This document shows, one piece after another, positions 23,904-59,343 of a stretch of 59,343 nt of DNA. The notes beneath the pieces were generated by a model. That model saw nothing but the letters and a program-made list of their open reading frames with translations. It was not told where the DNA came from and searched no databases. How positions within the stretch are numbered: position 1 is the first letter of the stretch; each line of letters begins with the position of its first letter. The stretch is from Chlamydiota bacterium (GTDB lineage: Bacteria; Chlamydiota; Chlamydiia; Chlamydiales; Rhabdochlamydiaceae). The stretch is from contig JABDAY010000001.1 of assembly GCA_013288895.1 (NCBI GenBank), positions 1-59,343 of the forward strand. The letters run 5' to 3'. The position numbers and the translations under genes were made by a program.

Positions 23904-23921
23904 AAAATTTCCGGTGATCTT

Positions 23922-24027
23922 TCTTTATCGCGGTAGCGATTATTGATGCGGAGCCCCGCGTGTAGGACAGGCCAAAGGCCTGCCGGAACGTGGGGCTCCG
24001 CATCAATAATCGCTACCGCGATAAAGA
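23922..24027. repeat. long palindrome at the nrdB 3' end (simple form of the nested element)
   Basis: Arms of about 40 bp starting TCTTTATCGCGGTAGCGATT, with one mismatch (CCCCGCGT against CCCCACGT), and a central AGGCC-AAA-GGCCT hairpin. The same outer arms and centre recur at 58270 and 59140, where an extra 94-base segment and a second centre are inserted. Located between convergent nrdB and F-box genes; bases 24028-24133 hold only an A/C/T-rich stretch with a weak AAAGAAAGC/TCTTTCTT stem that may terminate the F-box gene. Confidence 0.92.
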
Positions 24028-24133
24028 GTAGGCGCGCAAAAGAGGAAAAAACTTAGTCTGTTGTATTAAGTGCTTCGCAATAAGAAAAAGAAAGCTAAAT
24101 TCTCTTTCTTCTTCCCTCTCAAGAGCCAAGTAA

Positions 24134-50119: not shown

Positions 50120-50162
50120 AATACCATGACGCGGTATTATAATGGTATTAGGAGGTGGTATT
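50120..50162 (+). promoter_or_regulatory. operator-like repeats before the VapBC-type module
   Basis: AATACC at 50120-50125 is followed by GGTATT at 50133, 50144 and 50157. The first two form the palindrome AATACC-N7-GGTATT. Spacing of about 11-13 bases fits cooperative binding by a ribbon-helix-helix antitoxin. The last GGTATT overlaps the ribosome site. Confidence 0.6.
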
Positions 50163-50426
50163 ATGTCGGCTTCAAATTTTAACCTAAGAGGAATTCCTGA
50201 AGATTTAATGGGAATTTTGAAAAAGGAGGCAAAAAAATTACATATTAGCGTTAATTCATTAATTTTAAAGATTTTAGAAAAAGGATTGGGGGCTTCTTTT
50301 CAGGTAAAAAGGCCACTTTTTCATGATTTAGATCATCTTGCAGGAACCTGGTCTGAAGAAGATGCAAAGAAATTTAAGGAAGAGACCAAATTCTTTGAGC
50401 AAATAGATGAAGGACTTTGGGAATGA
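50163..50426 (+). CDS. ribbon-helix-helix antitoxin of a PIN toxin
   Basis: 87-aa protein from ATG 50163 (AGGAGGTGGTATT just upstream). The N-terminal half fits a ribbon-helix-helix fold: NFNLRGIPEDLMGILKKEAK and KKLHISVNSLILKILEKGL. The C-terminal half is acidic (EEDAKKFKEETKFFEQIDEG), the part that usually wraps the toxin. It overlaps the PIN toxin gene by four bases. Autoregulation by the GGTATT repeats is likely. Confidence 0.8.
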   Translation: MSASNFNLRGIPEDLMGILKKEAKKLHISVNSLILKILEKGLGASFQVKRPLFHDLDHLAGTWSEEDAKKFKEETKFFEQIDEGLWE

Positions 50427-50833
50427 GACCTATATTAATTGATACCAACGCTTATACAGCCTTCAAGCGAGGAGATGCAGACATTGTTGAGTTGTTTCGC
50501 TCTGCAGAAGTTTTGGCTATTAACCCTATAGTTCTAGGTGAACTATTAGGGGGATTTGATTGTGGAAATAAGGCGCAAAAGAACCGCGATGAATTGCAGC
50601 AATTTCTTTCTTCTTCCAGGATTGAAATATTTCCCCTGACTGCAGATACTTCAACGTTTTATGCCCACATCTATGCTATTTTAAGAAATAAGGGAAAGCC
50701 TATCCCTTCAAATGATATGTGGATAGCAGCCACTGCTTTTGAACATGGATGCGTACTTTGCACCTACGACAAACATTTTAAAGAAATTGAAGGGCTTATC
50801 TCAGGAATTTTGCTTTCCGAACTAATTCTCTAA
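50423..50833 (+). CDS. PIN-domain ribonuclease toxin (VapC-like)
   Basis: 136-aa PIN toxin, start ATG 50423 overlapping the antitoxin stop (ATGA). The acidic catalytic residues are visible: Asp in LIDTNAYTAF, Glu in VLGELLGGF, Asp in SNDMWIAATA and Asp in TYDKHF. VapC toxins cut tRNA or rRNA and stop growth when the antitoxin is degraded. lysS follows about 35 bases after the stop, an insertion between housekeeping genes. Confidence 0.88.
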   Translation: MRPILIDTNAYTAFKRGDADIVELFRSAEVLAINPIVLGELLGGFDCGNKAQKNRDELQQFLSSSRIEIFPLTADTSTFYAHIYAILRNKGKPIPSNDMWIAATAFEHGCVLCTYDKHFKEIEGLISGILLSELIL

Positions 50834-56170: not shown

Positions 56171-56365
56171 TATTCCCGTATAAATTTTACAATAAATGTA
56201 TATGATCTCAGGGATATAGTCCAGCTTTTTGAACGATGAACGCTGAATAATGAATGTTGAACTACTATACGGTGATTTAAAATTTTAATTTTTATGCAAT
56301 ATATTGCTATCAATTTTAATGGCATTTTGGTACAATCCTTATAAATAATTTACAAGAGGTGCTTT

Positions 56366-58258
56366 ATGATGGCTCTGCCTTCTGGTGTTCATTCTTCTTC
56401 CTCTAGCGAGGTCCGCCCCTGCATCCCAGAATCTGCTAAAAACGTATTTCTAGTTCTTGCAGTCGCTTTAACAATTATCACTGTTTTAGGCGGCATACTT
56501 TGTACCATCAACCCCTCGTATGTGAATGCACATCTCACAGCTTTCGCAGCCAGCACCGCCGTTGCTGGGGTCATTACTCTTGCGCTTTGGGCATTGTACT
56601 TGATTGCAAAGAAATCACCTCACCAGCCCGCCTCATGCGTGCCTCCGCCATGCGTATATGTTTCAGAAAGAGCTTTAAACGTTTCTCCGCCGATTGAATT
56701 ATGGAAAAGTCAATGGAAGCGTTATAATGACTATGGTGAAGGCTATGAAGCAGATGAACGACTATTCATTGAAGCTATGAAAACCTACCCTCAACAACTC
56801 GCACAATTCGTAAGGGGATATGACCATCCAAGAGATGAGTTTACACAACGAATGATGCTAAATAGGTTGTATCAATCTGTACAGGATGAACAAGACAAGA
56901 CTTCTTTTTTTCAAGTTTTAGCCTTCTCTATGCTCGGTGATGTTGATGGTAGCGATAAGCATGAGTTTACTACCAATTTTTATTTCCTAAACAATCTTGG
57001 AAGCTCTATTCCGGATAATTATTGTCAAGTCATCGGAACTCTAATGGAGCTTGCAGATCCGATAAATGAAGAAACCTATAAAAAAATTCTCTTTAATTTA
57101 TTAGGCCAAGCCTTCTTGGAATTACATGCGTCAAATAGCGACAGGGCTCGCTCCTGCAAAATTTCTGGTGAGTATGAAACTCGCGCTCGTATTTGTGTCC
57201 AAGCCGCAAATTTCATTTTGACTAAAAATGATCCCGCCAAAATAGACCTTATGAGAATGAGAGAGGGTTTTCAATTTCTAGAAAGATTTTTCCCAGAAAC
57301 AAATCCAAATTGGGATGCAACTAGAAAAAAATTCTATGAGCTTATTTTAAAGAAATCCCATGGAATTTATGACGACCTCGTACCACAAAAATTCAGACCT
57401 GCTGATTCAAACGCATCAAGAAGCCGGTTTGATGATCCAGCAATTGGTGCTCTTCAAGTCCGAGCTGCAGCGAACGAGGTTCGTCGTAGTCAAGCCGAGC
57501 CTCGGGAAATGGTGGCAGCTGTAACGAGAGCCAAAGAAAAAAAAGCTCAATGTCTAGAAGAGGCCAAACAATCGGGTAATTGGAATTCTTATTGGGACAA
57601 TTATGGCGGCGGAGAATCGGTTGCTGAGGCTCTAAAAGATGATCCCCAAAAACTCGCAATGGTCATGAAACAACATGGCCCGCATCCGATCCTTTGGCTA
57701 ATAAGAAATCCCAATTATCGTGACCTTTCTTATAAAGTTGTGGCCTTCTATATTCTTGGCAAGAAAAGGTTTGATTATGAGTACAAAGCAAATAACGAAA
57801 ATTTATATAATTTTGTTATGGATCATTATGTCAAAATTATCCCCGCTCTAGCACAACTAGCCAATCCGAACGATAAAGAGACCTATAAACTCATTGTCCG
57901 TAATCTATTAGACCAAATCTTCTGGGGGATTGAGAGACGGCACCTTAAGCTTAAAAGCATTCCTATCGATGCAGATCTTATTTGTCGATATGCTCTAAAC
58001 GATGTTTTGGCTAAAATAGAAGACAAAGATACCAGGATAAATCTTATGGCAGAAGGCTTTTATTTTATAAAAACATTTCTTTTAAAACCTCCTTTATCCC
58101 GCCCCATAGTTGAAATAGCAAAAAAATTCTATCCATTTGTTTTAAATGGGTCTGAAGGGATTTATGATCATCTCGTGCCTGAAGCATTCAGACCTGCTGC
58201 TTCAAACGCTTCATCACAAAATGGACCGGCTGCTTCTACTTCACCAAAACAAGGATAG
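56366..58258 (+). CDS. large Inc-like protein with two C-terminal helical repeats
   Basis: 630-aa protein. Residues 1-25 are Ser-rich, then a bilobed hydrophobic region of about 55 residues (VFLVLAVALTIITVLGGILC, short loop, AFAASTAVAGVITLALWALY) that fits chlamydial inclusion-membrane proteins. Two related helical domains of about 215 residues follow; each ends with the same signature GIYDxLVPxxFRPAxSNAS near residues 335 and 612. The rest of each half also corresponds (ANPNDKETYKLIVRNLL with ADPINEETYKKILFNLL). No known domain recognised. An effector exposed to the host cytosol is the inference. Confidence 0.6.
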   Translation: MMALPSGVHSSSSSEVRPCIPESAKNVFLVLAVALTIITVLGGILCTINPSYVNAHLTAFAASTAVAGVITLALWALYLIAKKSPHQPASCVPPPCVYVSERALNVSPPIELWKSQWKRYNDYGEGYEADERLFIEAMKTYPQQLAQFVRGYDHPRDEFTQRMMLNRLYQSVQDEQDKTSFFQVLAFSMLGDVDGSDKHEFTTNFYFLNNLGSSIPDNYCQVIGTLMELADPINEETYKKILFNLLGQAFLELHASNSDRARSCKISGEYETRARICVQAANFILTKNDPAKIDLMRMREGFQFLERFFPETNPNWDATRKKFYELILKKSHGIYDDLVPQKFRPADSNASRSRFDDPAIGALQVRAAANEVRRSQAEPREMVAAVTRAKEKKAQCLEEAKQSGNWNSYWDNYGGGESVAEALKDDPQKLAMVMKQHGPHPILWLIRNPNYRDLSYKVVAFYILGKKRFDYEYKANNENLYNFVMDHYVKIIPALAQLANPNDKETYKLIVRNLLDQIFWGIERRHLKLKSIPIDADLICRYALNDVLAKIEDKDTRINLMAEGFYFIKTFLLKPPLSRPIVEIAKKFYPFVLNGSEGIYDHLVPEAFRPAASNASSQNGPAASTSPKQG

Positions 58259-58269
58259 GCACCAAGCCC

Positions 58270-58527
58270 TGAGCAAGCCCATTCTTTATCGCGGTAGCGA
58301 TTATTGATGTGGAGCCCCGCGTGTAGGACACGACGAAGGAGTGCCGGAACGTGGGGTAAACGAGCACCAGACCTCAAGCTGCAGCAGCAGCGAAACGATA
58401 TGCTTATAACGTCTAGTTTCGCCAGCTACCGCGGCTCATATATTAAATCCCTAATTTACCCCACGTTCCGGCATGCCTTTGGCCTATACGTGGGGCTCCA
58501 CATCAATAATCGCTACCGCGATAAAGA
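58270..58527. repeat. nested palindrome bracketing the toxin-antitoxin pair, copy 1
   Basis: Outer arms 58283-58527 match the simple palindrome at 23922 (TCTTTATCGCGGTAGCGATT and complement). Inside, a second inverted pair TGCCGGAACGTGGGGTAAA (58342-58360) and its complement (58455-58473) bounds a 94-base segment containing a GCGAAAC/GTTTCGC hairpin. A preceding TGAGCAAGCC is shared with copy 2 at 59140. Together with 59140-59343 it forms a direct repeat at 870-base offset. Bases 58528-58630 hold the promoter and ribosome site of the antitoxin. Confidence 0.93.
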
Positions 58528-58630
58528 AAACCCAAAGCTCAGGTTATATAGATTTTTTATGCCTGATTTTCAAAAAAAAGGCTTTCTGTGTTTCTGTATT
58601 TGTATATAATAGACTTGAAAGGAGAAAAAT

Positions 58631-58870
58631 ATGTCTACCAAAACTTCTAGATTAACAATTGACCTGCCTAAATCAGAGCATAAAAAACTAAAAATGGCTG
58701 CATTGATGTTAGGTACTAGCATGAAAGATCTTGTTCTTATAAGTGTCGATGAATTTATGCATAGGAAGCCAAACAAGGCAACCTTAAAGGCCATTAAACA
58801 ATCTGAATCGAGAAAAGGTCTTAAAAAATTTGACAACATGGAAGACCTTTTTAAAGATTTGGGAATTTAA
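58631..58870 (+). CDS. ribbon-helix-helix-like antitoxin of the YafQ-type pair
   Basis: 79-aa protein with ribosome site AAAGGAGAAA. The N-terminus TSRLTIDLPKSEHKKLKMAA and LGTSMKDLVLISVDEFM resembles RHH regulators (ParD/RelB/DinJ-like). The C-terminus SESRKGLKKFDNMEDLFKDL would neutralise the toxin. Its TAA overlaps the toxin ATG by one base. Confidence 0.8.
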   Translation: MSTKTSRLTIDLPKSEHKKLKMAALMLGTSMKDLVLISVDEFMHRKPNKATLKAIKQSESRKGLKKFDNMEDLFKDLGI

Positions 58871-59142
58871 TGTTGATACCAATAAGAACAACCCAGTTTA
58901 AAAGAGATACGAAATTAGCTGAGAAGCGTGGTCGAAACATGTCCAAGCTTAAAACGATCATGACTAAGCTTGCTAGTAAAGAACCTCTCGATCCTAAATC
59001 TAAGGATCATAAGTTAACCGGGGATTATAAAAATCATCGAGAATGTCATGTAGAACCTGATTGGCTGTTGATTTATAGTATTACAGAAAATGAAATCACC
59101 TACGTTAGAACGGGAACTCATTCTGACCTTTTCAAAAAATGA
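58870..59142 (+). CDS. YafQ/RelE-superfamily mRNA interferase toxin
   Basis: 90-aa toxin. The family core is visible: QFKRDTKLAEKRGRNMSKLK, then DHKLTGDYKNHRECHVEPDW, LIYSI and RTGTHSDLF with the catalytic His near the end. YafQ-type toxins cut mRNA at the ribosome. Its stop TGA is the first three bases of the second repeat copy, which suggests that repeat and cassette junctions coincide. Confidence 0.87.
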   Translation: MLIPIRTTQFKRDTKLAEKRGRNMSKLKTIMTKLASKEPLDPKSKDHKLTGDYKNHRECHVEPDWLLIYSITENEITYVRTGTHSDLFKK

Positions 59143-59343
59143 GCAAGCCTATTCTTTGTCGCGGTAGCGATTATTGATGTGGAGCCCCGCGTGTAGGACA
59201 GGCCAAAGGCCTGCCGGAACGTGGGGTAAACGAGCACCAGACCTCAAGCTGCAGCAGCAGCGAAACGATATGCTTATAACGTCTAGTTTCGCCAGCTACC
59301 GCGGCTCATATATTAAATCCCTAATTTACCCCACGTTCCGGCA
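59140..59343. repeat. nested palindrome, copy 2 (cut by the window end)
   Basis: Aligned without gaps to copy 1 at an offset of 870 bases over all 204 visible positions, with only about seven differences, five of them clustered around the first central hairpin (GGCC-AAA-GGCC here, changed in copy 1). The window ends exactly at the end of the inner inverted repeat. Confidence 0.93.

Follow-up and report, generated by a model that had tools for sequence, protein, structure and literature searches.

Gene-less palindromic elements around a toxin-antitoxin pair in a Chlamydiota genome, and Y1 transposases between arms of the same kind

Our main reading, to which we give a probability of roughly 0.8, is that the two nested palindromes near the right end of the window (the whole 59,343-nucleotide stretch analysed here) are two of 16 gene-less copies in the draft genome of this Chlamydiota bacterium, that arms of the same kind elsewhere enclose a Y1 (HUH) transposase, and that such an enzyme, acting on the hairpins, likely spread the copies in trans. 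Because the arms enclose a transposase in other genomes and a miniature there is an internal deletion of a full element, we take the window palindrome to be a miniature element, likely mobilised in trans.

Hairpin binding on single-stranded DNA, and the cutting and rejoining of ends, are established for IS608 TnpA and TnpA-REP. By analogy, the enzyme would bind the hairpins of the present elements on single-stranded DNA, cut their ends and rejoin them. Movement of the window copies would by now be rare or have ceased, given that the sole Y1 gene found in the 84.8%-complete assembly has another end sequence. At the locus itself, we picture a variable site into which the toxin-antitoxin pair and an element came, the element then being duplicated locally; copies 1 and 2 are probably the outcome of such copying, with the toxin pair left between them.

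The palindromes of the window and their copies in the genome

The window lies on contig C1 of its genome (G000). A direct repeat (58270-58473 and 59140-59343) of 204 nt, without gaps, 97% identical and with a spacing of 870, agrees with the initial annotation, which had described two gapless direct copies of a nested inverted repeat. Outer arms of 49 nt (94% complementary) and inner arms of 25 nt (92%) surround a 94-bp centre that does not differ between the copies; the seven mismatches fall at 58280, 58288, 58331, 58333, 58335, 58340 and 58341. Two hairpins lie in each arm, hairpin 1 and the signature stem called hairpin 2, and hairpin 3 comes next (Table 1). The toxin stop codon had been placed at the start of the second copy, and its TGA does form the first three bases of that copy. 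The 12-bp flank that the two copies have in common was not seen beside the other copies read in this genome.

Table 1. Features of the palindrome locus, with a further short copy in the window
Feature	Position	Strand	Remark
Left flank of copy 1, 12 bp	58270..58281	+	Recurs with one mismatch at 59140-59151 (copy 2)
Copy 1, left arm	58282..58360	+	Hairpin 1 at 58288-58301, loop GGTA; signature stem hairpin 2 at 58313-58356
Copy 1, centre, 94 bp	58361..58454		Carries hairpin 3 (about 58376-58434); same sequence in copy 2
Copy 1, right arm, inverted	58455..58528	-	Inverted-repeat and arm-model match
Antitoxin ORF, 79 aa	58631..58870	+	Weak ParD match, below cut-off
YafQ-family toxin ORF, 90 aa	58870..59142	+	Profile match
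Copy 2	59152..59343	+	Comprises the left arm (59152-59230), the centre and the first part of the right arm, up to the scaffold gap
Collapsed short copy of the same palindrome	23921..24028		Between convergent ORFs

The end of the window had been read as a contig end at a multi-copy repeat. That is not so here, where C1 (85,802 bases) continues past a scaffold gap of 100 N (59344-59443) inside copy 2, but it does hold for contigs C17, C77 and C23, which end or begin at copies. The elements would explain palindromes at which assemblies of such environmental chlamydiae break. Beyond the gap come right-hand pieces of the element, to about 59690, and then nadD. The readable part of the centre past the gap is the same as the centre of copies 1 and 2, and this centre is unseen in the other copies read, which looks like local copying.

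A DNA search of the genome with the element gave 35 matching pieces. R1, a covariance model of the 79-nt arm built from 15 arms, gave 25 rows at E <= 1e-3, which we grouped into 16 sites on many contigs (copies 1 and 2 count as two); C23:1, which BLAST alone detected, is outside this number, as are weaker rows, among them C5:24528 (E 0.005). Full copies measure about 245-275 bp (on C1, C45, C5 and C14), collapsed forms occur on C32, on C12 and at C1:23921, and the shortest copy is a remnant of 28-34 bp (C17:404). The foot of hairpin 2 reads GTAG in most arms of this genome, with other GNAG forms (GAAG, GGAG) elsewhere. No target-site duplication was evident by eye at the copies read; IS200-type elements are not known to make any.

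Two copies, on C5 and C14 (L012:2220-2283 and L019:2070-2136), have about 60-70 bp of left flank in common, as if it had been copied along. The genome has other repeats too. A different palindromic repeat on C5 (L201:16733-16907) also has many matches in a genome of the same genus (G001), and on C51 about four units of a separate palindrome family, likewise of AG-stem..GGA-stem layout, form a tandem array (L209:1440-1860).

Copy 1 folds as DNA to -96.3 kcal/mol, against -36.0 (sd 3.4) in 200 shuffles (z -17.6), and the copies on C45 (z -23.0) and C5 (z -20.3) fold strongly too. Folds this stable, some paired changes in the arms and the position of many copies close behind genes are also what one would see in structural or regulatory repeats, that is, RNA hairpins or terminators under selection and not mobile elements. 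The paired changes themselves vary with the measure: 98% of pair cells pair in the arms of this genome against 92% in shuffles, and the covariation score was reached by 0 of 500 shuffles (kinship is left out of account in this control), but 50 of 500 shuffles reached the count of pairs in which both sides changed, and 474 of 500 that of pair types. We rejected a terminator on account of the stretch that follows the stem of copy 1, which is A-rich and not T-rich on the strand read, and a known RNA family for lack of any Rfam match in the window at gathering scores. The DNA is moreover absent from all 46 relatives searched, and in other genomes arms of this kind surround transposase genes, so that we hold selected structural repeats to be a most improbable explanation.

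Arms and Y1 transposase genes in other genomes

The initial annotation had proposed a search of the genome and its relatives, and the answer depended on the method. The DNA search that missed all 46 relatives was joined by a second negative, in that no exact 20-mer of the element occurs in the genome-contig database, but the structure model found R1 arms in at least 19 of 232 genomes of the phylum, the present one included. The further genomes, at least 18, all lie outside the family of the present one, with 10 of them in a single family, and were reached solely by the structure model; because 20 candidates were scored per genome, these counts are minima, and the genomes are draft assemblies. 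For the two copies on C5, no clean empty site was found in G001, where the neighbouring gene content differs too.

Genes for Y1_Tnp (PF01797) are present in 18 of 20 genomes, namely the 19 with arms plus G001; G001 and G090 have none. Several of these genes are enclosed by inverted arms, so that a full element consists of arm, transposase and inverted arm. We aligned ten arm-enclosed enzymes (alignment A3) and ran the profile against the genome-contig database, keeping the best 80 of 189 loci, 13 of them chlamydial. R1 places an arm at each end of the transposase gene in 10 of these 13 loci, and at a single end in three (L113, L115 and L117); at L111 the downstream arm is 386 bp off, with another copy in between. 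All ten A3 members are seeds among the 13 loci, so the independent count is that of the three non-seed loci (L109, L118 and L120), each of which has both arms. Outside the chlamydiae, R1 matched 3 of 67 loci (L128, L149 and L181).

Inverted repeats scored around the gene without any arm model exceeded the 99% level of a swapped-flank control (score 55, with a high maximum of 117) at 10 of the 13 loci from chlamydiae and 38 of 65 from elsewhere, two of the 80 loci being without flanks; three chlamydial and 27 of the 65 other loci did not exceed it. The motif AG-stem-GNAG..GGA-stem, pointing inward, stands beside 20 of the 80 genes, on both sides in seven, where shuffles gave an expectation of 0.15, and none was found beside the other 60. 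The stems differ in letters yet pair (CCCCGCGT/ACGTGGGG, CCACGGGT/ACCCGTGG, CCACGAGT/ACTCGTGG, CCACTGGT/ACCAGTGG). Genes of A3 type (E <= 1e-20) occur in 15 of 19 genomes with arms against 14 of 213 without (Fisher p 1.6e-12), a test over 232 genomes that ignores kinship and uses a profile itself built from arm-flanked genes.

Two genomes relate miniatures directly to full elements. In G119, a gene-less copy aligns with a full element in two blocks, 309 and 331 nt long, at 94-95%. The blocks adjoin in the miniature, whereas in the full element 270 bp of the transposase gene come between them; by this alignment the miniature is the full element minus that stretch. In G102, short pieces from the two ends of the gene region are left in a miniature, at 83-85%. 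Arms beside transposase genes also tend to resemble gene-less arms of their own genome: 17 such arms gave 15 comparable ones, of which 14 were closest to a gene-less arm of the same genome (the exception, at L076, is closer to an arm of another genome), in a comparison that used 61 of 64 rows and in which some of the closest gene-less arms belong to an adjacent copy at the locus itself. One element end from an Armatimonadota genome matched at least 50 pieces there (40 of 87 candidates scored), and pairing the 40 near-full-length rows, with 10 short ones left out, gave 13 inverted pairs. One of these encloses 461 bp, the gene, and the other 12 enclose 137-203 bp, too little for it. Going by these distances, that genome holds one full element and 12 miniatures.

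In the present genome no full element for the copies was found in the assembly. Its single Y1 gene found, on C33, encodes an enzyme with the Y---Q--HH signature and has ends of the same three-hairpin layout but of other sequence, and we rejected it as the cognate of the window palindromes; no cognate was found in the 84.8%-complete assembly. The enzyme that spread the copies may be missing from this assembly, or may have been lost, or the C33 enzyme may serve both types of end. The C33 transposase ends recur (L084, G000:C35:3676-3879), and on C35 they form an outward or inverted pair too close to hold a gene, perhaps a second miniature family.

Toxin-antitoxin pairs and the question of a cassette

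Between copies 1 and 2 lies a YafQ-type pair, consisting of a toxin that matches YafQ_toxin at 119.1 bits and a small upstream antitoxin ORF that is weakly ParD-like (24.5 bits against a cut-off of 27.3). Elsewhere in the window, small Arc-like and PIN-domain genes before lysS (50142-50833) are probably another toxin-antitoxin pair.

An unlikely alternative to local copying is that copy 1, the pair and copy 2 move, or once moved, together via their outer ends, the palindromes being a vehicle for addiction modules. Such a composite unit would account for the presence of the pair elsewhere in a genome of the same genus (G001, 52% complete), where it is 82% identical over 565 bp and has other neighbours, and for the limits of that similarity, which begins 48 bp past the right arm of copy 1 and stops at the first base of copy 2. 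However, the G001 pair is without palindromes, and since the elements generally lie near gene ends, their place after the toxin stop need not be special. Joint movement would also fit the way in which the pair, a 630-aa ORF and the two palindrome copies separate nadD from rsfS, genes that adjoin in 11 of 11 relatives fetched (nadD was found in 16 of 19 genomes, the present one included). The gene order nadD-rsfS-fabF, common to the 11 relatives fetched, is broken across window positions 56171-59343 and on to C1:59715.

A second enclosed pair bears on the same question. On C5 (L013:1060-2290), a 112-aa ORF and a Phd/YefM-PIN pair stand between two half-copies in the same orientation, the second of which begins 9 bp past the toxin stop; this favours a composite unit, but both copies are halves and the left one is weak (E 0.005). 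In G107 (L093:785-2614, C18) another gene lies between copies, a near duplicate of its neighbour, both encoding small, exported-looking proteins. The initial annotation had suggested an undescribed cassette system, which different cargo between the same repeats would prove. Phd/PIN on C5 is different cargo, albeit between half-copies, and the G107 gene counts for less as a near duplicate of its neighbour; against a cassette, G001 has the YafQ pair without palindromes and the centre shared by the window copies looks like local copying; on these observations a cassette system is not established.

Two further pairs lie within 1.3 kb of a copy and are not enclosed by copies, which again speaks against a composite unit: on C43 an HTH_37 antitoxin preceded by a short ORF of 56 aa, which we would read as similar to the first part of a HigB-type toxin, and on C14 a HepT/nucleotidyltransferase pair. 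Four pairs in 40.5 kb around copies stand against two in 154.3 kb of control (one-sided p 0.02), in keeping with a link between elements and pairs, but p rises to 0.06 without the window's own pair, and counting a Fic fragment as a control pair gives 0.04, or 0.11 without the window's own pair. In the control, all 25 small ORFs (55-170 aa) in 100 kb of other contigs were scanned and gave one HigB/HTH pair and the one Fic fragment. With the window included, 9 of 18 small ORFs were scanned there, and the near-copy pairs had been picked by eye before the scan; because the window control is partial and the near set was noticed first, we treat the enrichment as a lead. A further Phd/PIN pair, in G082, stands some 510 bp outside a full element. 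Local copying at a variable site remains our preferred account of the window locus, and the observations raise a testable link between palindromic ends and toxin-antitoxin pairs.

Enzyme class and comparison with known systems

NF033573, the NCBIfam model for IS200/IS605, matches 10 of 10 A3 members, the one whose score was listed lying above the cut-off, as does the C33 enzyme of the present genome; the A3 profile matches IS608 TnpA chains. The A3 motif YIxNQxxHH equals the Y---Q--HH signature of TnpA-Y1 subclass 1.2, which occurs together with HUH in 61 of the 80 loci. Judged by these profiles and motifs, the element enzymes are Y1 (HUH) transposases of the IS200/IS605 superfamily that bear the subclass 1.2 signature. 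The REP-associated model NF047646 (cut-off 80) gave 40.3 bits for an A3 member and 20.5 for the C33 enzyme, and we rejected canonical REP/RAYT on scores below that cut-off.

The initial annotation had likened the locus to integron cassettes or REPIN-type mobile units. In integron gene cassettes, as at this locus, a folded repeat adjoins a single gene or two; the present copies, unlike such cassettes, are dispersed and in no tandem array, and their arms enclose a transposase in other genomes. The REPIN half comes close, as the copies are dispersed and gene-less and full versions carry an IS200/REP-like Y1 enzyme between the same arms. REPINs with their RAYTs are likewise dispersed gene-less inverted hairpin repeats tied to a Y1 enzyme, but the ends found here are far longer, with three hairpins per arm, and the enzymes score below the REP-associated cut-off (PMC3116915). 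The PATEs of Haloquadratum are also transposase-free relatives of IS605-type elements with palindromes near their ends, but have no terminal inverted repeats, which the present elements do have (PMC3119063). Searches of an open-access library turned up no account of such elements in chlamydiae.

TnpA-Y1 subclass 1.2 was described in 2018 as generally without typical terminal IS200 structures, of low copy number and mostly from Cyanobacteria and Bacteroidetes (PMC6006769). The enzymes found here share its Y---Q--HH signature, its IS200-like core and its few copies per genome, and differ from that account in that they occur in Chlamydiota and other phyla, have long inverted ends with three hairpins, and have derivatives without the gene (PMC6006769); the trait of lacking terminal structures does not apply to the arm-flanked genes. 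An HUH group described as close to IS200 without transposon properties would thus stand within elements with large hairpin ends and gene-less derivatives, and subclass 1.2 gains a concrete candidate substrate with which its activity becomes testable. A wider proposal, which we hold rather doubtful, is that subclass 1.2 Y1 enzymes drive a widespread class of mobile elements, ranging from Chlamydiota to Armatimonadota, whose ends are nested palindromes of three hairpins and which are accompanied by swarms of miniatures, and that in the present genome pairs of such ends have more than once taken up a toxin-antitoxin module (YafQ on C1, Phd/PIN on C5) to make a composite unit.

The nearest described arrangement is that of the TIRtrons (PMC3733652). 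As here, TIRtrons/TIRYT have a Y1 gene within long inverted repeats that are also dispersed as families; unlike here, their consensus end motif is given there as GGGGWSAS, which is not the motif that we found (PMC3733652), and their enzymes are assigned in the 2018 description to subclasses 2.1, 2.2 and 2.5 (PMC6006769).
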